Notes under the pieces: generated by a model
Database searches by the model: none
What the model saw: only the letters and a program-made list of their open reading frames with translations
Told to the model about the DNA's origin: nothing
Shown: positions 12,567-46,969 of the stretch, piece by piece
How the letters are laid out: the number at the start of each line of letters is the position of its first letter
Numbering within the stretch: the first letter of the stretch is position 1
Position numbers and translations under genes: made by a program
Source: Pseudoscleropodium purum
Taxonomy: Eukaryota; Streptophyta; Bryopsida; Hypnales; Brachytheciaceae
Reading direction: 5' to 3'
Length of the DNA: 64,000 bases
NCBI GenBank assembly: GCA_963969395.1
Contig: OZ017805.1
Coordinates: 12,152,001 to 12,216,000, forward strand

Positions 12567-12854
12567 CAGGGTTGACAGGACGTCCGGACGCGGACGCTGA
12601 CATTCGCGGTCCCAACGGACGCAGCATCCGCCTGTCCCCCGTCTGCCCCGTCCGTCCGTCTGCCCGATTACGGTTGTCTGATCGACGCACGGACTGATCT
12701 GGTCTGCACGATCTGGGCGTCCGCCTCGAGCGGTTGGGCCGTCCGCCCCGTCCGTCCGCTTTCCAACGGTGGTCGGGACGCTGCATCCGCTAGCGTCCGG
12801 ACGTCTGGAAAACGAACGCTATTTTGGGGTGGACGTTGAGATTTGTCAACCCTG
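12567..12854 (+). mobile_element. GC-rich 288-bp hAT MITE with TSD TATATAAC
   Basis: The ends are CAGGGTTGACAGGACG on the left and, reverse-complemented, CAGGGTTGACAAATCTC on the right. A perfect 8-bp duplication TATATAAC (12559-12566 and 12855-12862) marks the insertion, as expected for hAT elements. The left ~140 bp matches the left end of the 9.86-kb element at 37,107 (GTCCGGACG.GGACGCTG, GACATTCGCGGTCCC). The right ~130 bp matches its right end (CGGACGCTATTTTGGGG, GAGATTTGTCAACCCTG). It is therefore an internal-deletion derivative. Arg/Pro-rich frames inside are by-products of the CGGAC motif array, not genes. Confidence 0.92.
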
Positions 12855-22045: not shown

Positions 22046-24184
22046 TATTTTCTACCGGTGCACTTTGGTACTATAAAGCCCAAAAAAGGCCTCGATTTCA
22101 TTTCATTTGAGATCTAAAAACTTATACTTATTCATTTACTTTGAAAATGGTCCCAATAAAAAGAGTAATGTGTTTTTATGATTTTCACCATTAAAAATTT
22201 AAACATGAAGTAATGGTTTGGAGTTATTTGTGATTTATTCATATAAAAAAAAATTGCATTTCATCAATTGCAAGGTAGATTGTGTAATGAATTTGATATT
22301 TTTTCATGTGAAATTAAGTTTTTGAAAGTGCATTGTGGTGTGCTAATACAATTTGTAGTTGTTCATGTCACTTCTAATCCCAAAAGAACTTTTATATGCA
22401 AATTTTTGAAACATTGTACGGAGGAGTAGTATACAAAAAATAAAAAATGCACATTTTCTTGTTAAAATGTCACAACTTCCATGCAATTTTGCATTCAAAA
22501 TTGGTGTACATAGTAATAAATAAGGTCTTTCAACGCATGTATAGTTAGATCTTGAACAAATTTTTTTTTGCTTCATTGGGGATAACTATAATCTCATACT
22601 CTTTTTTCATACTCAAAACACATTTAAAAAGTCTTGGACATTTAAGGATTAAATCCATCTTATAGCTATTAATGATTCACTCTTTCCTTCTATCTTGTAT
22701 TTATTAAGTTTTTAAAGAATGAAAACCACATTATTTTTTAAAAGGAAAAATCCTAAACCTTTAAATCAATTTTTTTATACTTTAAAAATATTCAAAATCT
22801 AAAATGCATAAATTTTATGTTAAGAAGATTCAATGTCTTATAAACTAGTTTGCAACATTACCAAAAAACTAGTGGTGGTATAGTCTATCTATAAGCAAGT
22901 TTCAAATTTGGGAATGAATGATTGATATTTAATGATTTTTTGTGTTGGCTACTTTGAAAGAAACAATTATTGCAATTTACAAATTCAAGAAAGATCTTAG
23001 AAAGTAATAAAGAAATTTAAATAATTCAAATTAAAAAAAAGTCAATTTTCCTAACTTGATGATGTTCTTTCTTAATTAAGAAGAAGTATCATCAGGAAAC
23101 AAAAATTGTATTTTCTACACATATACTAAGGTAGTGTACTTTGATATATTGTAGAAGGTGGATACTTTTTAATTAAAAAAATTTCCTTGTAGGTTTGTCA
23201 AACTCTAACATAATTCCTTGTATTATAATTTTGACTTTCAAATTTGAATTTTTTGGTTGGAAACAATACTAAAATCTCCTTAAATGGATAAAGTAGACAT
23301 TCAATTGCAAGCAATTTAAAAAAAACATTTAAAAAATTGATTTTTTTAAAATGTCTACAACTACTACATGTATCTATAACTACTACATGTATCTATAACT
23401 ACTACATGTACCTTCAATTTAAATTTTATAGAAAATAAACATATGGCACAAAAGTTATGAGTCCAAAACCACTTGTCTAAGGTAAAAAAAAAGGATAAGT
23501 ATTTCTTGCAATGATTTTTAATTTATTAATTTATTAATTTAATTTAATTGATAATAATTTGAAGAACATTATAAATGTATTTTCTATGTATAAAAAAAAT
23601 CACAACTTTTTTTTTCAATGACCAAAATAGAGTTCATTTGAATTAATTTCAAGGACAAAAATTACAATGCATCTTCGTAAAATATGCTTATAAACGGAAA
23701 AACATAGAAATAGCATGACAATATTTCAAAATATTGTCAAGCTAATTTTATGATTGTACTTTGCTTGGTAGTGGCACACTATCATTGCTTACAAGTTTAC
23801 TTCCTTTTTCATTGCTTCTAATGAACTTTACGTTAGGAGTCCAAAGGTCACATATGATTAGTTTTTTCCCAGTTGACCCTTAAATGTCGAAGGTTGATCC
23901 TCAAAATCATCCTTTTCTATTACCATGTGAATCACTAGCCTCCAAAATTGCATAAGTAGTCATTGCAAGTCAAACTTCTATAGAAGATCTTCCCTTCCAA
24001 AACAAATTTTGATGATGAATAGTTATACTTCTATCCTATACAATTTGATTCCTTGTCATCCATCGGACACAATGCATTCACCTTGGCATTCAAGGATTGA
24101 AATGATTTTATACGAGCATTTGATGAAAGTAATCTCAAGTTCTAATTTTACACCAATCAAAAGATAGTAATATATTCATTGAAT
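22046..24184. other. AT-rich upstream DNA of the TEL gene
   Basis: No gene supported. It contains the 19-bp minisatellite noted separately. AT content falls abruptly at about 24,190. Confidence 0.55.
23352..23410. repeat. 19-bp tandem repeat, three copies
   Basis: The unit TATCTATAACTACTACATG has period 19 (ACTACATG at 23,363, 23,382 and 23,401). Confidence 0.9.
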
Positions 24185-26178
24185 TGTTTTTATGGGTTGG
24201 ATTGCTGATGCTGTTTACGAAGCCCTTGGAGAACAACTACAGCACAAGGAACTCATTCCCGCGTTCCCACGCAATCCGGTCCCACGGGCAGGCCTATACG
24301 AAAAAACCATGCCGTCAAGGAAGAGTCAAGAGTGCCAATAAGGTCCCCCACACTAAGGGGCCCCACAGTCACTGTCACCGCCGCCATTCTGCCGCCTTCT
24401 CACTCCCAGGTTCCAACATAATTATAACTCCCCGTCCGCCCGGGCAGCCTTTGTCCAGTTACCCTGGATTGGGCAGCCTGTCTGCCTGTTGAGGCGAGGG
24501 AGCCGGCCAGATGTCACCCATCCTTTGCCCGGCCCGGCTTTGTGGAACCCTTAATGAAGGGAGAAGGTGTAGAAGTAAAAGTGTCGTTGCTTGCATCGTT
24601 TCCGTGCGCGTTTTCACGCTTTGCTCTCTCTCTTCAAACTATTTACTAGTTCTTCCTCCTGGCGACCATCTCGGCCGAACTTGCATAACGTATGCGCTGC
24701 TCCATCGTCTTCTTCGTAATTCACCCCCTGGCTTAGTGCTGTTTCGGGCAGCAATTGGATCGCTAGGTGAAGTGGCGGATATATTTTTTTCTCTAGAATT
24801 GGACATCATCGTCGGGAGGGGGGAGGGGGTCGATAATCTCCTGGTAGGGACGGTTGTGTTTTAATGATGTTTTCTGATGTTCTGTGGTTCTTGGGATTCT
24901 GGTTGTGAGGGCTGGTGGAGTCTCTTGTCGTAATTCATATAAGTCGTGGACTGCTAAGATCGGCTTTTGTGAGTTGACTGGTGTCTGGTTGTTCTTGAGT
25001 TTTATGGTTCTTTGTGGTGTGTGTGCGTGTGCTTGTGAGTGAGAGAGGGAGGGAAGAGTGATAGGTTGGAGTTTGTGATTTCTGTTTTTTTGGGCTTCTT
25101 AATGTTTAGTTTGGAGGAGTTTACGAGAGTTTGTTTCTGTGATCACTGGTGATTTGCGGCGGGTTCGTGGGTGATCAACTTCGCTTGGTTTATTTATACT
25201 CACTGCTGCACCTACACTGCCTCTCTCAGATATATGTGCGCGTGTTCGGTTAGGTAAAGTAGAACTTGTCTCTACGATAATTTTTCTTTCCGGCTTCTGG
25301 AGTTCTCAATCGAGTGTGCTGCGGATCTCATTTTCCAATTTCGTACATTCCGTGGATTTTGTAATTTTCATCTATTATTATAGCATCCTCTTCAATTCGG
25401 TTGAACTTGTGTCGTTTTCGTTTTCCAGCTCGTGGTACCTAGCATCATACCACCCACGTTTATTTCTGCACGCTACCGCGTAAGTGGCCCGGGAGCCAGG
25501 GTTGGCGAGGGTGGCTTATCAGGATAAGAGGTTGGTCTCTAGAGCTTTGTGTTTTTATTGAAGTTTGTCATCATGAAAACCCCATTCAGCTAGATTGTGA
25601 AACGCTTCTGTATTTCTGGTCTAGCCAGCTCATTTGCTGAGCAGCTGTCTCTCGGACCCGGTGTCTGCAGCGAAGTTACTTCAAGCTCTTGGACTGGTGG
25701 GCTGTAAGGAGTGATGCACGGACAGGTGCCGTGTTCACGCTGTAGTATAAAAAACTCATGGACTGGCAACTATCTCGTGTGCATAGACAGCGGCATTGCT
25801 TTTGAAACTGTAGTTTGTTCGCATGCTCGAGGAATAACAGCGCTGTGTTCGATTCGTTGCAGGTAGGAGCGTTTTGACTTGTGTACTGCAGTGTGACGTC
25901 GTTCGAAAGCCTAGACGTGATAGGTAGGTGTCTATTGGTGAATGAATTGCGTTAGAGTCGATAAGTTAACGAAGGTAGTCGTGGGTGAAGGGTTTAGTGA
26001 GCTGAAGGTGGAACGTCGTTCCGCATTGTACGCCTGCGATCGCAAGGATTTCGAGCCTGTGCAGTCGAGCAAGTTTCTCTGATGTTTCTTTGCTGTTGAG
26101 GGAAAAAGGCTGAGGTTTTGCTTGAAAGAATCTGAGCAGTGATATTTCAGCTTTCGGGTGGCGGGGTTTGGCGATAGC
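24185..26178 (+). promoter_or_regulatory. Promoter and long 5' leader region of the TEL gene
   Basis: Base composition switches from about 30% to about 50% GC at 24,190 and stays high up to the TEL coding region, as expected for a plant gene's promoter plus 5' UTR. CT-rich tracts occur around 24,615-24,665. Several acceptor-like sites (TTTTCCAG at about 25,429, CGTTGCAG at about 25,861, ATTTCAG ending at 26,150) suggest a spliced leader. An in-frame TGA at 26,140 shows that the main frame cannot start further upstream unless by splicing. Several short upstream ATG frames are present and could limit translation. I cannot place the transcription start. Confidence 0.5.
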
Positions 26179-29100
26179 ATGGGCGGAAAAGTCAATGCGG
26201 GTATAGGTGTACAGTATCGCAGTGCAGGATTGACCAATGTTGGGGAGCGCGACCATGTGGAAAGAACGTTGAAGAGTCGGCGTCTCCCTAGTTGCAGCAT
26301 GGCATCGTCGACGCTTTCGACTCAAGATATTGGTAGTACTTCAGAAATAATGGGTGAAAAGAGGGCAGGAAGCGGCGCCACCAGCACGGTCACCAACGAC
26401 ACGTGCACCCCGTTCGTCGAGGCTGGACTGATACTTGACAGTCTCAAAGAGATGAGCTTTGAGTCTGGGGAAGGTGCAGATTCAGCTCCAGAGGGCATTG
26501 CAGCAGGTGAAAATGGGCAGGAAAGTGGAGTACAGGCGGTCAAGAACGACGTGCCGTCCAGCACTCCTGAGCTATCTAGTCAACCGGAATCCGCAGTCCA
26601 TGTAGATTATGTCATGACGCAGCAGTCACATAGTCATGGCTATGCTGCTCAATATGGCGAGAGCCCCCTGGCACCCAGAGGGTTGACGCACGAATATCGC
26701 CCGCCACCAGCATTGCAGCTTCCCGACCAGACAATGATGGACAATGAGTTCGCAGAACTACATCAGGATAGCGAGAGTGAATATGCTCCTTCCAATTTCA
26801 GGCTACCGGCCACCCTGGTTGGTTCTCCGTTCTGCCATGGTTCATGTCACGATGGAAAAGCATCGCTTGATCCCAATGCTAAGGAGTACACTCCTGCTCC
26901 GTCTCCCTGCATTTCTCCCGTAATGCCACAATCTGTAAGTCAGCAACACATTGGTGTACCGTCTTCTTACTCGTTTGAGTCTGGGCATATCTTCGTAGCT
27001 GGGCTAGACAATCGTTCAATGATATTTAGTCCAAGTTACGGTTCAGATTCCTCAATGCCCATCTACGGAAATGGATCACAACTTGCGTATGCTCCCGGTT
27101 CAGTGACACCTGCTGACTGGGCTTGCTCAGACGTTTCAGATTTAAGCGTCCATCAGGTGGCATCCAGCGCGGGAGACCATCATCCTGTCACTCGTGCGGT
27201 GGTGGCTCAGCCACTTCAGTCGTCCCACCCTTTGCGTCCAATTGGCATACCGCCTTACCAATCCATGGGACTGCCATCAGTTGGAATTTCTGTGCAAAAT
27301 GTTTTACCCCACCCTCCAATCTCAGGCAGAGAGCATGTTTCGCGGGCCATCCTGTTGAATGGCGTGCCATCGTCCTTGACTGATGAGCAGCTCAAGATTG
27401 AGATGGGGAAATGGGGCGATGTTAGAACTGTAGTTTCGGACCAGAAACATCAAGGTTTGGTCACTATCAACTTCTATGATCTTCGCTGTGCCAAGGAGGC
27501 CTTGCGAGATATACAGCAACAACATCTCAATAAGCAGCAGAGGATGCAGCAGCAGTTTCAACTCTCTCAGAAACAGCGTGGAAGTCCAATCAGTAGTATC
27601 TCAAGAGAGCATGTAGATATGGCATGTGAGAGGCAGGATACGGCTAAGCCTCCTGAGTTGCCGACACAGAGTTGTAATGGGATAGCCTTTACTACAGCTA
27701 TTCCTGGGAAGGGCCTCATTAACGGTGTTGTCATGTGGGCTCAGTATACACTGCCTATTGGTGCTGCAGCTGGTCCTGATGGTCTGAACCAGGGCACGCT
27801 TGTGGTTTTCAACCTAGATGTTGACACCACCATGGAGCATCTGAAATCTGTCTTTGAGGCTTACGGTACGTACTGTTTATGTCCAGTCTGTTCCTTGCCG
27901 CGATTATAACTTGTAGTCTACATTGGTGATAAGATGCCGTGCTGCGTTTGTCTTTGGGTATTCCTGTGCACCCAACTTACTGGTGACTGGAATGATTTAA
28001 TTGGCTACTGCTAGATCTTTTCTCAGAACCATTTTTTCAAATTTCAGTACTGACTAACTATTTTGACAGACTCATTTGTCTATTGAGCAACTGTTCTGAC
28101 CTTAAAATAAATTCGGTTTGGTTGATTATTAGTTTCTGTATTGTGTCCGCTTCCTTGTGCAGAGTTCTTTGTGGCTCGTCTGGAGTTGTTTTCATCGTTG
28201 GCAGTTTTCAATGATGTCTTGTTTTAACATGTATCCGAAACCGTGGTTTTAATATGTTGGAGAACTTAAGGAATATGAAGTCTTCAGGAGTCTACAATTG
28301 CGTTAATGTTTTATCTGAGGTTCGTGGAGGTCAGGTCCTGACGGTCGATAGGATTGATGGCACTTTGATGGATGCAGTAGTGTGTCCATTGAATTGAATT
28401 TTCTGCTGTTGTTTAAAGGGCAGCTTTGGGTGGTTCACTCTAACAGAAATTGTGGGCACCTAAGGTTGAAAATACTCATGTATTTGTGGATTTGAATTTA
28501 TACATATCATATGTCCAGGAAACTGAATATTTGCTTATTCGAGGAGTGCCAACGAGACAACTTGGAAACTGTTATTCCTGGAAGATGGATTCTAATCCAC
28601 GCACCCCCTTGTGTTGACGCAGGTGACGTCAAAGAATTAAGAGAGACGCCAGCTAAGAAGCAGCACAAATTTGTGGAGTTTTATGATGTGCGCGATGCCT
28701 CGAAAGCCCTCAAAGCTCTTGACGGAACTGAGATAAATGGAAAACGTGTTAAGATTGAATTCAGTCGCCCAGGAGGTCAAGCACACAAGGCACGTGCTCA
28801 GCTTCAGCATCAAACCCAAGGGACTACCGTATACCACCCTTTAACAAGTACTAGATCCGCATTAGTAGGTTCTGGGCCTAGCGCGGTAGCAGGTCAACCG
28901 TTCTATATGAATTGGAGTGCAGACGCTGCAGGTACACCCCTAACAATGCCAGGTCCTCATGGAGGTACTTCATACCTATGGGCATCTAACATAGGAACTC
29001 CTGTTACCCCATTAGGTTTATCTGTGCCTCAACCTTGGAATAGTGGTGGCAATCAGTTACCAAATTATAATTACGCACCCATGCAGGCGGGGCCGTCAAG

Positions 29101-30872
29101 TCGTGCAGGTCCGCTTGTTGTTGTGGGCAGTATGGAAGCTTTATCTTTCGATAGAGTTGGGAGAAGAGCTATGGCCATACCCTACAATGGAGGACCTGTA
29201 TCTCCTGGCGAAAGTTTTTCCTCTAGTCATGGTGGAAGAGGGAGCGGCATTGTGAGTGGGCAAGGTAGAGGAGATGGAGTTTCAAGCCGAAGGAAGCGGA
29301 ACTCTACAGTCAATGGGGTTGCTGGATATGGCAAAGTAGATTCCACGAATCATTTAGGATCAGGGAGTAGACCGAGGGAAGGACCTCGCGTGGGCACACG
29401 CATTTCAACGAATAAATTATCTGCCCGGCAAGATATTCACCCTCAGTATGTATTTGACGAAGCAGGGGTTCAGGCCAAGGAGACGCAACGGACCACCCTC
29501 ATGATAAAAAATATACCCAATAAGTACAGGTAGAATTTTGATGCTTCTGATATTTTCCGTTCATTCTTAAGCTTGCTCGTTGAATTTTGATCTCTTTGAG
29601 TATTGGGGTATTGAGATTTCCAATAAATTATGAAAACCCTAACTTGGAGTTCTGAATTTTATCTACAATCTCTACGTGTCCCTCGTGATGAACCCGTTTT
29701 ATGTGGTCTTTTGAGAGACATCAAAGAGTTTCTGAATTCGATTGTATGACCGGCGATGCAGCCAGCAGATGTTACTCTCGCTTCTGGACAATCACTGCAC
29801 GGAATGGAATAAGCGAGCGGAGGGATTGGATGAACCTGACTCTGCATATGATTTCGTTTATCTTCCCATTGACTTCAAGTAAGTACTTTCTCTTGCAGGC
29901 ACGTTTTCTCTGCATATGATTTCATTTAATGTGTCCTAAACACGTGAAGACGTGCGTTTGCTGTGCGTGTTTTACTTGCAACGTCCTCACAAGATCTGCA
30001 GTCATGGTTTATTGTCCTACACCGATTTGTGAGCATTGGAGTTCGTTTTTGGAAATTGTTCTGTACTTCGGCTGAAGGGCCGTAGCCTATTTGTATTCTA
30101 TCTAGTATTTATTATGAAGGTTGATTTTGCCTTATCTTTGATTAATTATTAAATTCCCGTTGTTGTACATGATAGTTAAAAGGGTAGGTTGAGTTTTCCT
30201 ATCCAACCCTGGTTTGACTGACTGAGACCTACATCTTGCAGGAATAGGTGTAATCTTGGATATGCGTTTGTTAATTTCACTTCTGTCCAAGCAACAATGA
30301 GATTGTACAGAGATTTCCACCTCCAACAATGGGAGGAGTTTAACTCACGTAAAGTATGTCATGTGACGTATGCTAGAGTTCAGGTATGTTCTGTCTGCTG
30401 GCCTGATGTCTCCGCCTGTCTTCTGGGGACGATTTCCTTATGTTTTTCATCCTGGTCTCTACTCTTAGTTAATCATTGCCTCTTGACTCCTTATATTCGT
30501 CGTGGTACATTGACTCTTGCTGTAAAGGGACGGCTTGCTCTTGAGGAACACTTCAAAAACTCGCGATTCGCTTGTGATACGGACGACTATCTACCTCTCA
30601 TGTTTCGTCCTCCTCGGAACGGCATGAATACTTCAATTCCTGCGACCGTTGCAGCTGTTCATCAATTAAGTCGTGTGCTGGGCATTTCCTTGGAGGAGAA
30701 TGGGAAGGGGCTCCGCAATGGCGAAAGAAGCGGGGATGACCTTTCAAAGAGGGTTCTACCTATTGGTGTTAGTTGTACTGGTCAGGAGTTAGGGATTGAA
30801 TTGTCGACTGGGCAGTCTGGATGTTCTTCTTTGGGCGGACATAGGTCGAGCATGCCCCAGCAGCATAGGTGA
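26179..30872 (+). CDS. TEL: TERMINAL EAR1-like (TEL) Mei2-type RNA-binding protein
   Basis: Five coding exons: 26179-27865, 28623-29529, 29762-29878, 30242-30383 and 30528-30872. They join in frame at GT..AG sites to give 1,065 residues. RRM1 (about 388-455) has ILLNGV and a weak RNP1 (LVTINFYD). RRM2 (about 540-612) has LVVFNL and KFVEFYDV, and spans intron 1. The Mei2-type C-terminal RRM3 (about 852-955) starts [13 protein letters not shown] and includes [23 protein letters not shown] and [15 protein letters not shown], followed by [10 protein letters not shown]. The degenerate RRM1 and the RRM3 tail match TEL rather than AML proteins. In other plants TEL proteins are RNA-binding regulators acting at shoot meristems and in leaf initiation. 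The long N-terminus (1-385) is low in complexity and Ser/Pro-rich, and a Gln-rich stretch follows RRM1. ATG 26,179 is the first in-frame start after a stop at 26,140. ATG 26,299 is also in good context. This is the only intact host-type gene seen. Confidence 0.93.
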
Positions 30873-37098: not shown

Positions 37099-37106
37099 AT
37101 TGGGAT
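37099..37106. repeat. Left target-site duplication ATTGGGAT
   Basis: Identical octamer at 46962-46969 on the other side of the hAT element. Confidence 0.92.
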
Positions 37107-37265
37107 CAAGGTTGATACGATGTCCGGACGTGGACGCTGTGTCCGCAGCGTCCGCTGACATTCGCGGTCCCCATGGACGCAGCGTCCGCCGGGACCGCCC
37201 CGTCCGCCCCGTCCGCTTTGATGGCCCTATTTCCCCCGACCGCCCTACCCAAACTGCCCCGCGGT
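37107..37265. promoter_or_regulatory. Left subterminal GC-rich motif array of the hAT element
   Basis: Contains repeated CGGACG/GTCCGC units (GTCCGGACGTGGACGC, GTCCGCAGCGTCCGC, GACGCAGCGTCCGCC). It matches the left half of the MITE at 12,567 and, inverted, the right half of the one at 40,944. Binding by the transposase is an inference. Confidence 0.6.
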
Positions 37266-37661
37266 CACTCTCTTAATCTTTAAACAATTAAATGTTAAAT
37301 GAAGTGCAATGGTTCGCGATTTGTCATTAAAACAATGTCTCTTATAAGTTGAAAGATTATAAAGTTTGACCATGAGTCCATGATAGTCTTGAAACTATGA
37401 AAAAATTCCAATTCATTTTCAGAAGGCAAACTAAAAAAGTTTGTGACTTCAAATATATATATATACCATTTAAAAATCGAGATCAACACAAATATAAACA
37501 TAATCAATATGGGCAAAATATATTCAATTTAATGTAGAATACCATACATTGTGCACATTTGGCTAATTGCACATATAATTTTTTTCATTCCAACTCTATA
37601 TTTCTAAACTAATTTTTAATGCCTATATAACCTATTCAACTACTACTTCTGTACTACCAAT

Positions 37662-39155
37662 CTAATATAAATGGCGGAAATGTTCATCTGGCATTGTCCA
37701 ACAATATGTATTAGAAAATCGCATAATCACATGGGTCAAACTAGTATTTTCATCGTCAGTTTTCGAAGAAATGCGCTTCAAGTAAGCATAAAACACTTTT
37801 GCAAAGTCATGAAAGGCAAATTGTGTCACACTAGGTGTTTTAAGTAGCAAGTTGAAATACGACTTTGACATGTTGTTTCCATTCATCCGCCGAGCAATTT
37901 TTGGAATGGCATACTCTTCCGACTTACGTGAATACATCGGAATGACTTCCACATCTACACCTGCTTTATGCAAATATGCAATACGTGGATCCACCCACCA
38001 TCTCCTCTGCAAAGTCTGTTTCATCTCATCTACTGATGTGAATGTGTACAAAGACTTCATTGGCTGAGAAGCTAAGGTGGTCATACCCCGATTGCAAACT
38101 CCAATGTACACACGTGACTCATCCTCTGGAAAATGCAACAAGATGTTGTCCGGAGAAAGATCATTGTGCAAATGTCCAACAAGATGCACTGCATACATTA
38201 TATGTATAAAGGCCCATGTCAGCTCCGTGTGCTTCTTCCAATATCGCCCTAAACGGTGAGCTTTTACAACCTCCTTTTTGGTTGGATTTGTATACATCAA
38301 ACGGATTTCAATGTTGTTTGGATAGTCCTTATCCATATTCAACATTTGTCGAAGAGTTCCACCATTCCACCAATACACATAACCTTCACACGTCGTTCCG
38401 TGCACCGCAGCAAACCGTATCACACACGCGTGTGGATTTCGAATAGCCATTGATTCATTTTGATGTTCTAACTTTACAAGATCGGGTCGAGTTTGGTGGT
38501 GAATGGATTTCTTTGCTACAAACTCCCAATAAGAAAGTACTCCTGGACATCCTTCAATACGGACCTTTCGAATCGTTGCATATCCACCTCTCATCGTTCT
38601 ATCATCAACAACAATCACACGTGCTGTATCTGGAAGTGCTATTAGGTGCCATTTAGTCCTTTCCGCTTCAGCAACTCCATCATTGCTTTTCCACCAACCC
38701 ATTGAACCAACTTGATTGTGTTTTTTGGCGAATGGAGCACATCGCCCCCTAAACAAGTTCGTTTTCAAAATCACTTCTTCAAACTGGGTGTCATTGGGTC
38801 GATATTCCTTGCCATATTTAACCAAAATGACTTTGGAATTCCACAAAGCGTCATGAACCTTGTTCTCCAAACATTTGGTGAAGTGCGCTTTATCCATTTT
38901 GTCATGCCACTTCGCCACATTCAATGCATCCAACAACATCTGTGTCATGTCTACCTTGAATTTAGACACACACTCCTCTTGATATTTGATGTACTTATTG
39001 TCTAAAGACAATGTTGTTTCCGATTCATAAAATTGAACGATGCGCTCGATCATGAATTTTTTGCATTCCTCTGAAGGACTTTGGCGAGCTACCTCCAAGT
39101 TTGATGGTCCCTCTCCATGTTTAAACTTCGCAACCTTCTTCTTCCCCTTCATCAT
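37662..39155 (-). CDS. Protein kinase-like protein carried by the hAT element
   Basis: Intact 497-codon frame without introns, starting at ATG 39,155 (the next codon is also ATG). Residues 1-180 are an unrecognised basic-to-mixed N-terminal part starting MMKGKKKVAK. Kinase features follow: a glycine loop GGYATIRKVRI (190-200), a VAIK-type lysine in EFVAKK (K215 or K216), and a catalytic loop HNDLSPDNILL (330-340) that keeps the Asp and Asn. The DFG position reads CNRG (354-357), so the Mg-binding Asp is replaced by Asn. Phosphotransfer may be weak or absent. The C-terminal lobe (about 360-497) is poorly conserved. It lies wholly inside the hAT boundaries, antisense to the transposase and about 4 kb from it. 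It may be captured host cargo or a long-standing second element protein. The protein family is uncertain beyond the kinase fold. Confidence 0.8.
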   Translation of the reverse strand: MMKGKKKVAKFKHGEGPSNLEVARQSPSEECKKFMIERIVQFYESETTLSLDNKYIKYQEECVSKFKVDMTQMLLDALNVAKWHDKMDKAHFTKCLENKVHDALWNSKVILVKYGKEYRPNDTQFEEVILKTNLFRGRCAPFAKKHNQVGSMGWWKSNDGVAEAERTKWHLIALPDTARVIVVDDRTMRGGYATIRKVRIEGCPGVLSYWEFVAKKSIHHQTRPDLVKLEHQNESMAIRNPHACVIRFAAVHGTTCEGYVYWWNGGTLRQMLNMDKDYPNNIEIRLMYTNPTKKEVVKAHRLGRYWKKHTELTWAFIHIMYAVHLVGHLHNDLSPDNILLHFPEDESRVYIGVCNRGMTTLASQPMKSLYTFTSVDEMKQTLQRRWWVDPRIAYLHKAGVDVEVIPMYSRKSEEYAIPKIARRMNGNNMSKSYFNLLLKTPSVTQFAFHDFAKVFYAYLKRISSKTDDENTSLTHVIMRFSNTYCWTMPDEHFRHLY

Positions 39156-39339
39156 CGTGACAAATGAAACTGATATAGATGAAATTTTCTAATTTAAATG
39201 TGAATTCCACGCACAAATGTTAAAAAAATTGGCAACAAGGGGGCCCCAATAAACCACTCTTGCCTTGCCTCGGAAAGGAGCCAATGGAGGATGAACCACC
39301 AAGCTCTCCGCTCCACCTTGCATTCACAAGGGGCAAAGC

Positions 39340-39535
39340 AAAAGTGACAATGCGGACGGCCCGTCCGCCCGATCGGACGGCTACGGGCGGACAAATCTGG
39401 CATCCGCCCAATCGGCCGGTTCGAGGGGGGGCGAACACATCGGCCGTAACCGGGCAGACGGGTATCGAGGCGAACGGGGGTCTGGGCGGATGGGGCGGAC
39501 GGGTATGAAGGCGGACGGGGTGGTTTGACCCTAAA
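39340..39535. promoter_or_regulatory. GC-rich CGGAC-motif island upstream of the kinase gene
   Basis: About 190 bp of CGGACGGCCCGTCCGCC-like sequence, 185-380 bp upstream of the kinase start. It is similar in motif content to the element ends. It may be the kinase promoter, a transposase-responsive site, or a decayed nested MITE. Its edge GTTTGACCCTAAAG only vaguely resembles the terminus. Proline/arginine-rich frames here are not genes. Confidence 0.5.
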
Positions 39536-40943
39536 GCGCTCCGACGTCTATATTTTGCACAATAAACAGAGGTCTTCATGGCACTGTATAATCCAACTAA
39601 ATTTTTTATTCATTCAATGTAAAATTTGAAATTAATAAAGGTAGCCTTCCTTTATGACCAAATTTATGAATTCTTGGTAAATGATATTTTTGTACAAAGA
39701 TATGAGCTAAAATGTGCAAAAATTCACGAAAGGATTGCGACGTTGCATTGTGTATAAAGCAATTATAAGAAGGTAGTTGAATAAAAATTCTACTATTAAA
39801 TTGAATTAGTTGACGTCTAATCACTTAGTAAACCGCTAAATGTCCAAGTCCTTGCAAGTGTGTTTTGGCTATCGAAAAAGAGCATGGACTTATGGTTATC
39901 CCCAATGAAGCAAATTGTTCTTTTTTCAAAATCTAACGGTATAGATGTTTAACCCCTAAAGTTCTTTTCACTAAAAACACTTCAACACTGCCATTAGTAG
40001 TACACATACCAAGTCTTAGAAGAAAAATATTTTTAGGCATATGTAACCTTAGGATCTTGTAGTAAATTAGTTGGAAAAAATGTGGAAAAAATTTTAGACA
40101 AATCCACCATTTGGATTGTAAGATATTAGATATTGAGTGTTTCATTTAAGGGGGCTACTCAATTATGTCTATTAATGAACAATTGGTAGGCTAACAAACC
40201 TAACTTAGCATGTGTTTTAATATTTGTTGCAATTGTTTTAGGAATATTATAACATAATACTATTATAATATTCTTATAAATGATATAGTACTAAATCATT
40301 TCAAAATCAACAACATTCGAACACAATCTGTCAATCTTGTCTTCCATACTCCTTTAATGATATATACATATAAATATATATACATATATAAAATATATTA
40401 GATAAATCAACATGAACAAATCAATGATTATATATTTCATAAATCTATTCTTCATCAATCAAATAAGAGTGCATGACTGTTCAAATATAGACAAAGATGG
40501 TTTCTCCATTTGTTCCCAAAAAATAGATAAACAAATAGAGAAAGATATGAAGTGAATGTTACTTAGAGAATTGGAGGGAAAGAAATTGAAGTACTCAATT
40601 GCATTTTATTAAATTGGAAAATTGCATGTGGATGGCATGAATTAATCTTCATAGATGCTAAACTCATACGAGTTGCATTTTAGCATTTATGATTTATGCA
40701 ATTGATTGAATTGAAAGCTCTTGTAATTACATTTTCAAATTTTCGATTCAATCATTCAAATTTGCAAGAGTGATTTATGATAGATTTATAACTTTAAATG
40801 TGAAAGCATTCAATGCTTTTATGCGTTTGTTCATCAATATATTAATTTTAAATAAATAATATTTTTTTTTATAATATATGCATAAACCATTGCTTTAAAG
40901 AAAACAAAAAACTAAGAGCCAAGCCAAATAGACTGGTCAAATG
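39536..40943. other. Non-coding AT-rich interior of the hAT element, left of the nested MITE
   Basis: No gene supported. It separates the kinase gene and its island from the nested MITE. Confidence 0.6.
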
Positions 40944-41232
40944 CAGGGTTGACGAATGTCAACGTCCACCCCAAAATAGCGTCCGTTTTCCGGACTTCCG
41001 GACACACGAACACTAGCGGACGCAGCGTCCCGACCGCTGTCGGAAAGCGGACGGGCAGGGTGGACGGCCCGAGTCGGACGCCCAGATCGTGCGGACCAGA
41101 TTAGTCCGCGTGTCGATCGGATGGCCGTAATCGGGTAGACGGACGGACAGGCGGACGCTGCGTCCGCCGGGACGCAAATGTCAGCGGACGCTGCGGACAC
41201 AGCGTCTGCGTCCGGACGTCGTGTCAATCCTG
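40944..41232 (-). mobile_element. 289-bp hAT MITE nested in its parent, TSD GTCAAATG
   Basis: The left end is CAGGGTTGACGAATGTC. The right end, reverse-complemented, is CAGGATTGACACGACGTCC. A perfect octamer GTCAAATG lies at 40936-40943 and 41233-41240. It is in the opposite orientation to the parent element: its right half carries the GTCCGGACGCAGACGCTG end and its left half the CCCCAAAATAGCGTCCG end. It inserted after the large element was assembled. No real gene inside. Confidence 0.93.
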
Positions 41233-41240
41233 GTCAAATG

Positions 41241-42594
41241 AAGAAAACAAGAGAACAAGAGAACAAGAGCCCTACAAGAAAGCAAACAAAAAAAAAGAAA
41301 ATATCAAAAGGATTCAAAGGAAGGAGCAAGATGCATTCTTGCAAGACCGTAGAATACATAATGATTTCAAAATCCAAACACAAATATATTTTCTATTTCA
41401 ATGAGAGTCAAAAATGAACTACCCTGCTCTCAAAGATTGTACAATGTACACGTTATACAAAATGAACACATAACAGAAAGAGTAGAAGACATCGTTTATC
41501 ATGATTGAAAACTGAAATGATTTTTTCTTTCTATGTAGAATATTTTATGAAATGTAACAATGTATTTAATTATCATAGTAATTGGTAGAAATCTTTGTGC
41601 AATACATAGAAACATTTCATTCATGTGGAGTTTTTTCATTTATTTAGGATTAAAATTGAAGTATTATACTCTACAAAGTACAAACCGAAAACAATACTAT
41701 TTACCTAAGTTCAATAGTTTGCAATTGTTTCGTGAATTCATTTTGAAAACTCAAACGAAGAAATATTTTATAATCAATATCTTGTTCATTTGAATCATTT
41801 CAAAATTCGAATTCCGAATTCAATTCCTATTTATAATAGAAATTATGTTTGTCAATTTTTTAGATCTTTAAACAATGAACCCTCTTTTTTAAAATTAATA
41901 TTTAAAAACATTTGAAATAAGAATATTGGAATTACCCTTCAAAATAAATATAGCATAGGTAATCATGTAAAAGTATATAATGTATTCTATTCAACCAACT
42001 CAAGTAACGAATTTTTCTATGTTTTTAAGGAAAAATATAGCCATATATGATTTGAAAGTTAAAACATTGATTCTTTTTCTTTGTTTTCAAATCTAATCAA
42101 AATTTCATTAAAAAATATGAAAGACTCAATGTTCATTTCAAGATCGTGATGCACTTCTAATTAGAAAACACAACCTTTCATTAAATATCATGAGGTTGAA
42201 ATCCATTAAACTGTTATTCTAATTATGTATTGGGGCCTTTTTAAAAAATTTCATTTGCTTATGATGGAAAAGGAATTGATTATTTCTGCAAAACATTTGA
42301 TTTCCTAATAAACTTTAAAAAAATCCCCACCATCTTCAGATCTTCTCAAAACCTATTTAGAGGGATAATATCAGTAAATAATCCAAACATATTCAACTTA
42401 ACCACATTCCCCTCATTCATAAAACAATTTAGGGGAGAAAAGAAAAGATATAGGGTAATTAGGGTTTAGGGTTTACATTTTTTTTAAAATAAAATGATAA
42501 ATCAATTACATTGATCCTCATTTAGCAGTGATTATTAGGCTGTTTTTTTTTGGAAATGTTACCGCTCTTTTTAAGTAATATCGGCCTCATAGGA
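41241..42594. other. Non-coding AT-rich interior of the hAT element, right of the nested MITE
   Basis: No gene. A short TTAGGGTTTAGGGTTTA telomere-like run occurs near 42,460. Confidence 0.6.
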
Positions 42595-42845
42595 TGCTCC
42601 AATGGACAGATGGGCGGACGCCGTTGGCGGTCAGTGTTTAAGTGGGGCGGTCGGCGTGTCCAAAGTGTGGATGGCGTCGGAAGGCGGACAGCGCGAACAG
42701 TCCTGTTCGACCGCCCTGTCCGCCGCGTCCGACCGCCCGTCCGACCCGTCCGTTCGACCCGTCTGGCCTGTCCGCCCGCCCGCCCGCCACGTCCGGCCTG
42801 TCCGCCCGTTCGCTTTAGCCCTGTCCGGGCTGTTGCTTGTTTTTG
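42595..42845. promoter_or_regulatory. GC-rich CGGAC/GTCCG island upstream of the transposase
   Basis: 250 bp dominated by GTCCG, CGGAC and CCGCCC motifs, ending about 300 bp before the transposase ATG. It mirrors the island upstream of the kinase gene. It is likely part of the transposase promoter, and the shared motif suggests autoregulation by transposase binding (inference). Confidence 0.5.
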
Positions 42846-43143
42846 AATGTAAACCCTAAAAATGAACCTTAAATTTTCTGGAGAGGACTATAAATGTTAG
42901 AAAAGAAGCTTTTTGTATTCACTCTCGAAAAACCGAACGCTAAGATTTCCAAGGGCTATGAGCTTTAATTTATTGAGTCTCTTGCTTGGTAATGCATAGT
43001 TCGGTGGACAGGGGGGCTTTGATTTTCAAAGCTTAGTGTTACTAATTTCATTGATATTGTATACATTGTCACATTGTGGGTTTCAAATTTAAAACATTTT
43101 ATTGGTTTCTTTTGAAATTGAGGTAAAATATACACTTGTCAGT

Positions 43144-46100
43144 ATGGTGGCCAAACCGACGGGAGATTTTTCTCCTTGGTTTAGTGTGCAAGAGGGTGGT
43201 AAAGTAAAATGTAGGCTTTGCAAAGCGAGCATGTCAAGGAAGCTCAGCCGTATGTTCAACCACTTAGGCTATTTTGGGCCTGGAGGTGTATGTGATAAAG
43301 GGGTGAGCCTTTGTCCACGATTACCAATGGCAGTTCGAGATTTATTTCGGCATTGCGAAGGAGTTTTTCCAAAACGCGTTGTAATGGACAATGTGGATGG
43401 CAACCCTGGCCCTTCAGATGTCCAAGAGTTTTCGGCCGGAAAGGCTGTGTCGCATTCTGACCACGAAGACTCTTGTCCAGCATCCAAAGAATTGGTATCA
43501 ATGGTATGTGCCACAACTGAAATGATTTTGAGTACGAAAGCTTCTAGTGAACGTGAAACCCCGAGGGCATCAAGTTCTAGGCCTCAGAGGCAAGGCAGCT
43601 TAGTGAATGGGTTTGAAGAAGGTCATAGACACACATTACATTTAGTATGAGCAAATTTTTTTTATTCGATGAACTTACCATTTTCTGTGGCTCGAAATCC
43701 AGCTTTTAAAAAAGTAGTGAAGAAAACAGCTGTGTTCGGTAGGCCATACATTCCTCCCTCATACCACGACCTTTGGTACAAATTGTTGAATGAGGCGAAG
43801 ACCAACATTCAGATACAGTTGAATGCACAGACCGAAGATAGCATTCGAAAATTTGGAGCAACATTGTCCATTGATGGATGGAGCTCAGTGACTAATCGAC
43901 CTCTCATCAATGCCATGCTTATATCATCCGCAGGTGAAGAATTTCTTGGATCTGTGGATACAGGTGGTTGTGAAAAAATGCGGAGTACTTGGCAGCTGTG
44001 TTGGAAAAGTTCATTGAACAAGTGGGGTCCAAGAACGTCATGTTGATAACTACGGATAATGCTCCCGTGAATTCGTCCGCATGGGATGTAATATCTGCAA
44101 AATATCCTCATATTTTTTACCAAGGGTACATGGTACATGCATTAAATTTGTTGTTGAAGGATTGGGCTGCACAGAAATGGATTGCTTCCAAATTGGATAA
44201 AGGAGTTCTTGTAGCTAAATTTATCAGGAAGAGACATATGCCGCTAGCTCTATTGCGAAAGTATTTGCCAAATCTTGGTCTCTTGATGCCTGGGGATACA
44301 AAGTTTGCCTCTAAATTTATCATGATGGAGCGTTTGACAAAATTGAGAGGAGCATTGGAACAAACGGTGGTAGATCTGCAATGGGTTGAGTATGTACATA
44401 CTCTCAAAAAGAAACATGGAGCTAAAGTCTAACCAAAAGACTTGGCCTTAGCGGTGAAGAAAATTGTTCTTGATGACCATTTTTGGAATCCATCCATCAA
44501 TTATGTGGAGATGGTTGAACCAATCATATGTGCACTCCGCGATTTGGATTCAAAATCACCATGCATGGAGAAGGTGTTGCATATCATGAGGAAGTTAGAA
44601 AAGCACGTGAATGGATTACAAAGTCCACCATTTTATTTGCTAGAAGAACTTGCAATTTCATTGGTACAGTCTTTTTATGCCCGAAGAAGAATGGTGGACA
44701 ACGATCTCCAATCAGCAGCAGCTCTTTTGAATCCATACTTTCTTCATGACAAAGAGCAAGCGGATGACGCAGATGCAATGTCAGGATGTAAGAAAGTTTT
44801 GGAGAGAATATGTAAACCGGATGAATATGCAGCAGTGGTGAAGGAATTTGTAGCTTTTCGACACAAGGAACCTCCATTCCACAATATGTTGAATCCGGGA
44901 GATCAAATGTTGTTCACACATGCTTGGTGAGATTTTGAAGGTGCATGTGGCAAGTTTATAGCTCCATTAGCGAAGAGGATATTGACTCAACCGGTGTCAT
45001 CATCTTCATGTGAACGGAATTGGAGCAACTATTTTTTTGTTTACAACAAATCTCGAAATAAATTGAAACCGGAGAGAGCAGCGGATTTGGTGTACGTGTA
45101 TACCAATTCCAAAGTATTAAACGCATCGAAGGAAAAAGATGAAAAAAAATGGTATAATGATAATGTGGATCCGATGGAATCAGAGGATTCAGATAGGCCG
45201 ACGTTAGAAGACGATGATGACGAGGATGTGGAAAGGGCCCTTTCAGCTGTAGATGGCGGGGATGACTTCAATCGTGCGACAACATGGGGAGATGAAGACG
45301 TTATGGAAGGCTTTCCCGATTTGGTGAATGATACGCATAATTATCATCTAAACTACAAGGATGTCGTTCCCGACAATGCAAACGATGCATATACCTTTTG
45401 TGAAGACGAGGACAATGTAGAGGTACAAGAGAATCTACCTTCTTTAGCTGCATATTGCAATGGAATGGGATACTTGAATAGCAAAAACATTCTATCGGAA
45501 AAGGCAAACGCTATTGCCAAAGAGGTGAAAATCAATGAGAATGCTATTGGTGATGATAGGAGAAATGAAGAAGTTTTAATTTCTCAATCTCCATCTGTGG
45601 CATTAAATGTAGTGTAAGGAAACGACAAAAGAGAAGATGCAGTCATGGAAGTGGACGTTCCAAAAGATGTGGGCAACAATAGTGGTGATGAGGGGGAACC
45701 AAATATTGCGGTACAGAAAAATAGTGATTCAGTTGGGATGGCAGTCACAAATTCGGCAATTGTGAAGAGTAATAAAGGAAAAGAGCCAATGAAGTCAATT
45801 TTTGAAGTACTGAGATCTAGTGCTCTTCCACCAATACCGTTGAAGTCTGTGAGCACACGATTGAATGATTCTCAGAGCTTTGGTTATGGAAAACGCCTAG
45901 TGAACATTTCCAAAGAAATTTCTACAGGTAGTAATCTACGGAAAGTAGCGTCATCACCTACAACCCTAAGTGATATGGATAGTGATCGGATGCCATTGGC
46001 ATCTTTGCGTGCTCGCATTTTAGAAAAAGGAATGGCGCAAGAACCCATCAAATCAACAAACGGCACTCTATTACTTCAAAAAAAGCCAAAGTGGAGATAA

Positions 46101-46480
46101 CCGTTCATGGACATGTCGACCCTACATCGAGATTGATGGTTCAAGAATCAAGTAACGTAAAAGCGAAAAGAGAAATGCAACCTTTTTCTATCTCTCCAGT
46201 GAAGAATAGGACCCCTCTTGATGAAAATGTTGCTACTTTGTCAAATAGAAAGAAAAGAAAGGTTCCTATTCAAAAAGCCTTTAATCGTTCTGTCAAAGTA
46301 AAAAAAGAAAAATTAAATTCGAAAGAAGGGAGTAAACCTACTTCGAGAGAAGACTTGAAGGAGACAACAATACTTGATTCCAACAATGAAGATGACTCCG
46401 ATAATGAAGATTTTGAACGGAGAGCTGCAGGAGAGAGTAGTGGGGCTGAGGTTAAAGGAGATGTGGATTGGCGTCCATAG
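43144..46480 (+). pseudogene. hAT-family transposase, broken by few mutations
   Basis: The ATG at 43,144 precedes a BED-type zinc finger (WF at 12-13, CRLC at 23-26, FNHLGY at 38-43). Then come the hAT core (NLPFSVARNP near 43,671, SIDGWSSVTNRPLIN near 43,867, LITTDNAPVN near 44,043) and the C-terminal dimerisation region (LTQPVSSSSCERNWS near 44,984, RNKLKPERAADLVYV near 45,057). Lesions are TGA at 43,648, loss of one A in the run at 43,973-43,978, TAA at 44,430, TGA at 44,928, TAA at 45,615, and a frame change in the A run at 46,078-46,084. Reading continues for over 450 codons beyond the dimerisation domain as an acidic, Ser-rich tail with a nuclear-localisation-like KKRKVP near 46,255. 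The enzyme cut and rejoined element ends in the nucleus. This copy is dead but young. An intact sibling copy elsewhere in the genome is likely. Confidence 0.88.
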
Positions 46481-46834
46481 GAATTGTGGAGATGTGAATT
46501 TAGATGTTTGATTGTTTAGTTGCTCATGATATATGGAGCTCATGTTGACAAATGACAATGGTTTCTTCAATCATTTTATTATAAAATTGTTTGTTTATTG
46601 ATGATATACATCTCGCTGGATTTTAAAGTGATTTTGTTTCTAAATCAAAATGAAATTCAACAAAAAAAATTAAAAATATATTTCATATTTTAGCTTTTAC
46701 ATAAATAGTGATATACAACTCTATTGAATCGCAATTGCAATATAAGAAAAATCAAAATCAAAATGACTTCACTCTCAATCTCTCATTGGTAAAAACAATC
46801 AAAACCAAAAACCCAAAACGGGTTTTCTAAGCCA

Positions 46835-46961
46835 CCCCGCCCGTCCGCCCCGCCCCGCGCGTCCGCCTTCCGACGGCGGGAGGGACGCTGCGTCCGTTAG
46901 CGTCCGGACGTTTGGAAAACGGACGCTATTTTGGGGCGGACGTAGAGATTTGTCAACCCTG
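46835..46961. promoter_or_regulatory. Right subterminal GC-rich array and terminus of the hAT element
   Basis: Contains CCGTCCGCCCCGCC, GACGCTGCGTCCGTTAGCGTCCGGACG and CGGACGCTATTTTGGGGCGGACG, ending GTCAACCCTG. It matches the right half of the MITE at 12,567-12,854 almost base for base. Confidence 0.7.
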
Positions 46962-46969
46962 ATTGGGAT

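Follow-up and report, generated by a model that had tools for sequence, protein, structure and literature searches.

A hAT Transposon of the Moss Pseudoscleropodium purum with a Kinase-Like Gene Opposite Its Transposase Pseudogene

Introduction

hAT elements usually need a transposase alone, and a locus in the moss Pseudoscleropodium purum where a kinase-like gene lies opposite a hAT transposase raises the question of whether the two genes belong to one mobile unit and, if so, whether the kinase is a chance passenger or a regular part of the element. The locus lies in a 64,000-nucleotide stretch of contig OZ017805.1 (assembly GCA_963969395.1, positions 12,152,001–12,216,000 of the forward strand), called the window here, and the element is a hAT-type unit of 9.9 kb at window positions 37107–46961. 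The two genes lie in a single transposition unit, a conclusion that is well supported. The copy is probably the decayed remnant of a two-gene hAT transposon that was once autonomous in a moss-type plant, its divergent genes encoding a transposase of ~1,110 amino acids and a kinase of ~497 amino acids from a family of its own. We lean towards the view that the kinase is a regular accessory gene of this hAT lineage.

One Transposition Unit with Two Genes

The unit is flanked on each side by a perfect 8-bp duplication, ATTGGGAT, at exactly the positions where an earlier sequence-only reading of the window had placed the duplications and the element boundaries. The short terminal inverted repeats expected of hAT elements are present, imperfect and limited to the first ~10 bases: the left terminus is CAAGGTTGAT and the right terminus, as reverse complement, is CAGGGTTGAC, with 8 of 10 bases alike. 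Past the first ten bases the left and right ends are dissimilar (local alignment score 19), and the matching termini claimed in the earlier reading thus hold for this short stretch and not beyond it. The exact terminal decamer occurs four times in the window, just once at an outer end.

Two small non-autonomous relatives in the window define the ends of the family. Each has one A end, one B end and its own 8-bp duplication, where B denotes the type of the left end of the large element and A that of its right end. The left end resembles one end of each small element (local alignment scores of 65.5 and 52; by blastn, 89% identity over 79 bp and 82% over 76 bp), while the right end resembles the other (scores of 88 and 78; 88% over 112 bp and 80% over 120 bp). 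The termini of the two relatives are CAGGGTTGAC/CAGGATTGAC and CAGGGTTGAC/CAGGGTTGAC. One of them is nested in the large element, between the kinase and transposase genes. The flanking octamers agree at 8 of 8 positions for the outer pair and for each small element, and at 1 of 8 for each of the alternative pairings of the large and nested ends, 37107 with 41232 and 40944 with 46961. Because the two-element pairings match at 1 of 8 positions and the outer pair at 8 of 8, the kinase and transposase genes are assigned to one hAT unit, in agreement with the sequence-only reading. That reading had also named a coincidence of the octamers among the things that would overturn it, and this is not upheld, as A and B ends recur together with duplications of their own.

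The small elements at 12567–12854 and 40944–41232 indicate that the family exists as short GC-rich elements too.

Gene Layout and Motif-Dense Blocks

The two genes are divergent and read outward from a central spacer, each ending about 0.5 kb from a terminus. Of the 82 GTCCG/CGGAC sites in the window, the large element has 49 and the second small element 13; the other 20 lie outside both. Nearly all sites of the large element (46 of 49) fall in five blocks with a combined length of 1,112 bp: end B, GC-rich block 1, the nested element, GC-rich block 2 and end A. The limits of the blocks were picked by the analyst from the GC profile, and the motif count of each block was reached by none of 1,000 dinucleotide-preserving shuffles. 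Block 1 precedes the kinase start by 175 bp, and block 2 precedes the transposase start by about 300 bp. Subterminal repeats of known hAT elements bind transposase. Motif-dense, GC-rich blocks mark each end of the element and the upstream side of each gene, which suggests shared control of the kinase and the transposase.

The spacer between the divergent genes (39550–42590) is AT-rich, about 3 kb long and has no open reading frame of at least 100 amino acids wholly within it. It includes a repeat of about 111 bp at 39837–39947 that is 77% identical, in inverted orientation, to 22536–22644 and is probably a fragment of another dispersed repeat.

The Transposase Pseudogene

The transposase gene starts with an ATG at 43144 and ends at 46480. 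It is interrupted by stops at 43648, 44430, 44928 and 45615 and by frameshifts near 43975 and 46091, and the gene of this copy is a broken pseudogene, which bears on the autonomy of the copy and not on its family membership. The hAT transposase recognized in the earlier reading is real in its domains and dead as a gene. DUF659 and Dimer_Tnp_hAT score above the Pfam cut-offs in pieces of the pseudogene; zf-BED reaches 16.6 bits, below its cut-off of 20.6, and is unlisted in the seven relatives scanned. In six of these seven both DUF659 and Dimer_Tnp_hAT are above cut-off, and the remaining one, P0050, stops short of the second domain.

A read-through search gave eight transposase relatives, four of them 1,032–1,123 amino acids long, including P0053, which begins within the N-terminal part. 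The close relatives P0050 and P0057 jointly span the transposase from the first through the last codon. The tails of the relatives are long and acidic, ending in or near SSGAEVKGD, and have a PFxxSPxK motif; both signatures occur in five of the eight (P0052, P0053, P0054, P0055 and P0057), and the other three end earlier. Used as a search profile, the DUF659 region matched at least 84 proteins at E ≤ 1e-10 among 7,997 candidates scored; one of these belongs to Ceratodon purpureus and another, distantly related, to Glycine soja.

The Kinase-Like Gene and Its Family

The open reading frame of the kinase-like gene is predicted to adopt the two-lobed fold of eukaryotic protein kinases, and the top entries among the structural matches listed are ordinary eukaryotic kinases, although the absence of alpha-kinases from that list does not exclude them. 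Among the 49 relatives found, the sole plant named is the moss Ceratodon purpureus. Thirty of the 49 are 470–542 amino acids long and have in the alignment a common N-terminal part, so the protein is no fragment of a far larger kinase. Lys215 and Asp332 are invariant across 30 aligned rows. In the 30 relatives of at least 470 amino acids, the catalytic loop is of the HND type in all except P0013, and the DFG site reads DWG in every one, preceded by C or A. Since PF00069 stays below its cut-off in five of six relatives checked, these are not kinases of the typical sort; PF07714 passes in four of the six. To judge from these motifs, the relatives form a diverse family with conserved catalytic residues, unusual among kinases.

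The copy in the window retains HND and has CNRG at the DFG site. The 23 other close relatives are uniform at 82 columns, and this copy departs from them at 11; each of those relatives shows 0 to 7 departures at its own 71–78 columns. In a tree of 31 rows it groups with P0001 and P0002 with full support, and its end branch measures 0.32 versus 0.12 for each of the other two. Relative-rate counts find it faster in six of six comparisons, with chi-square values between 2.6 and 18.3 that fall below 3 in two cases. A Pfam kinase domain is recognized in 26 of 30 alignment members scanned, this copy being among the 30 and not among the 26. The kinase of this copy thus looks dead, with an open frame and catalytic degeneration. 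It had been called intact, which is true of the unbroken frame and, with the DFG-site motif lost, does not extend to function.

Table 1. Features of the transposon and its relatives in the window
Feature	Position	Strand	Basis or remark
Left target-site duplication, ATTGGGAT	37099–37106		outer pair 8/8 identical
Left end, type B, GC-rich, 7 GTCCG/CGGAC sites	37107–37290	+	blastn to small-element B ends and motif count
Kinase-like gene, 497 codons in one uninterrupted frame	37662–39155	-	open reading frame and alignment; DFG site CNRG, DWG in relatives
GC-rich block 1, upstream of kinase gene, 6 GTCCG/CGGAC sites	39330–39545		motif count, GC profile
Nested non-autonomous element, 289 bp, duplication GTCAAATG, end A left, end B right	40944–41232		blastn and flanks 8/8
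GC-rich block 2, upstream of transposase gene, 10 GTCCG/CGGAC sites	42590–42850		motif count, GC profile
hAT transposase pseudogene: weak BED finger, DUF659, Dimer_Tnp_hAT, long tail	43144–46480	+	4 stops, 2 frameshifts
Right end, type A, GC-rich, 7 GTCCG/CGGAC sites	46800–46961	-	blastn to small-element A ends and motif count
Right target-site duplication, ATTGGGAT	46962–46969		outer pair 8/8 identical
Second small non-autonomous element, 288 bp, duplication TATATAAC	12567–12854		outside the main element; helps define the A/B pair

Proposed Mechanism

In the intact ancestor, the transposase would have bound the GTCCG/CGGAC repeats at the element ends for cut-and-paste movement. It may also have bound the repeats near both gene starts, so that kinase and transposase would have been expressed and regulated jointly. 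The likeliest task of the kinase would have been to phosphorylate the long acidic tail of the transposase, which has a conserved SP-x-K site, or a host factor, and thereby to tune transposition or evade silencing; as a specific role this is doubtful. After the insertion, a small relative would have entered this copy and both functions would have been lost, with no order implied. A broader proposal, which we put forward tentatively, is that mosses hold a long-lived autonomous two-gene hAT lineage whose dedicated kinase phosphorylates the transposase tail or host silencing proteins and is required for transposition or controls it.

Several results weigh against a regular two-gene lineage with shared control. 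No other copy was found to carry the gene pair; the contig scans gave no relatives, and the lengths of the longest contigs of 49 kinase clusters and 90 transposase clusters show no match, in a comparison that is a weak test because one contig stands for each cluster. Gene calls on metagenome contigs leave exons unjoined, and the single-frame state of the kinase relatives is in part a selection effect of such calls. The likeness of the GC-rich blocks to the ends is confined to motif content: within the window, blastn matches block 2 to nothing else and gives block 1 a single marginal hit (E 9e-4). The spacer includes at least one other repeat, the one shared with 22536–22644. Changes specific to the window copy of the transposase are in modest excess relative to P0050 with four of four outgroups (chi-square 2.0–4.3) and are absent or slight relative to P0057 with three of four. 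Lastly, the contrast between a kinase free of stops and a transposase with six lesions does not reach significance (P about 0.11).

Alternative Explanations

The four family ends in the region could instead be those of two hAT elements, adjacent or composite, one with the kinase and the other with the transposase, and the outer duplications would then match by coincidence. Divided in this way, 37107–41232 would have B at both sides and 40944–46961 would have A at both sides, as inverted pairs, but A pairs with B in both small elements, and the octamers flanking each such pairing agree at a single position, against all eight for the outer pair and for the nested element. This explanation is largely refuted and retains hardly any probability. 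It is also quite improbable that the kinase is still functional or domesticated here, its frame kept by host or element use, possibly as a pseudokinase. An open frame of 497 codons beside a transposase with six lesions is what such use would leave, but the contrast falls short of significance, as noted above, and the lost DFG-site motif, the departures at otherwise invariant sites, the accelerated branch and the failure of Pfam to recognize a kinase domain in this copy, where it does so in 26 of the 30 alignment members scanned, all argue for decay.

The capture of a host kinase gene or retrocopy by an ordinary hAT element, in one copy or subfamily, is a more serious competitor, though an unlikely one; the kinase relatives would then be ordinary host genes. 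Capture of gene fragments by Pack-hAT elements is documented for plants (PMC8903248), the kinase frame is intronless, as expected of a retrocopy, and neither the contig scans nor the matching of longest contigs revealed a second two-gene copy. The frame is complete rather than a fragment, however, and the N-terminal part common to 30 of the 49 relatives does not suit a protein cut from a much larger kinase. The Pfam scores of the relatives mark them as atypical kinases, and similar motif-dense blocks precede both genes. A diverse, complete and catalytically conserved family is more readily explained by an accessory gene that serves a function than by random fragment capture, and we accordingly prefer the two-gene hAT transposon, now decayed.

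Comparison with Known Elements

Plain hAT elements have 8-bp duplications, short CA..GG-type ends and a transposase with DUF659 and Dimer_Tnp_hAT (hATC). The moss element shares all of these and differs in its second gene, in a transposase of ~1,110 amino acids whose long tail is kept in relatives, and in the divergent arrangement of its genes, outward from a central spacer. No description of a hAT element with a kinase gene was found in the open-access literature searched.

The nearest precedent seen is the IS3EU transposons of fungi with an alpha-kinase gene opposite the transposase; those described as TET-bearing have a TET/JBP gene between the two (PMC12730594). Both systems place oppositely oriented transposase and kinase genes inside one DNA transposon. 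IS3EU has a fungal host, 6-bp duplications and an alpha-kinase, whereas the moss element has a plant host, 8-bp duplications and a predicted fold that matches ordinary eukaryotic kinases; its hAT domains and the length of its duplications place it outside IS3EU. No TET/JBP domain was detected among the eight open-reading-frame pieces scanned. The same paper states that IS3EU, hAT7 and other lineages carry TET/JBP genes, which are thought to counter silencing. The hAT7 transposons of rust fungi, with their TET/JBP dioxygenase gene, resemble the moss element as hAT elements with a second enzyme gene, theirs being thought to aid escape from silencing; they differ in the kind of accessory enzyme, in their 7-bp duplications and in their fungal hosts, and the accessory gene is co-oriented with the transposase in the three families quoted (PMC12730594). 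Plant Pack-hAT elements are non-autonomous hAT elements with captured gene fragments (PMC8903248). They resemble the moss element in carrying non-transposase coding DNA but lack a transposase of their own, while the moss element has a complete kinase frame and a full-length transposase pseudogene inside.

A Probable Host Gene in the Window

At 26143–30872 of the window, three open frames with two RRM_1 pieces and one RRM_2 resemble exons of a host gene for a Mei2-like RNA-binding protein.

Conclusions

If the proposed history is true, a kinase-keeping hAT lineage would be a case of a transposon that supplies its own phosphorylation control, and the regulation of transposons by phosphorylation would become testable with a natural enzyme-substrate pair. 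It would account for a diverse family of plant and metagenome kinases that general kinase models recognize weakly. It would also add one kingdom and one superfamily to the eukaryotic DNA transposons with accessory enzymes, which include those with TET/JBP genes and IS3EU with its alpha-kinase.
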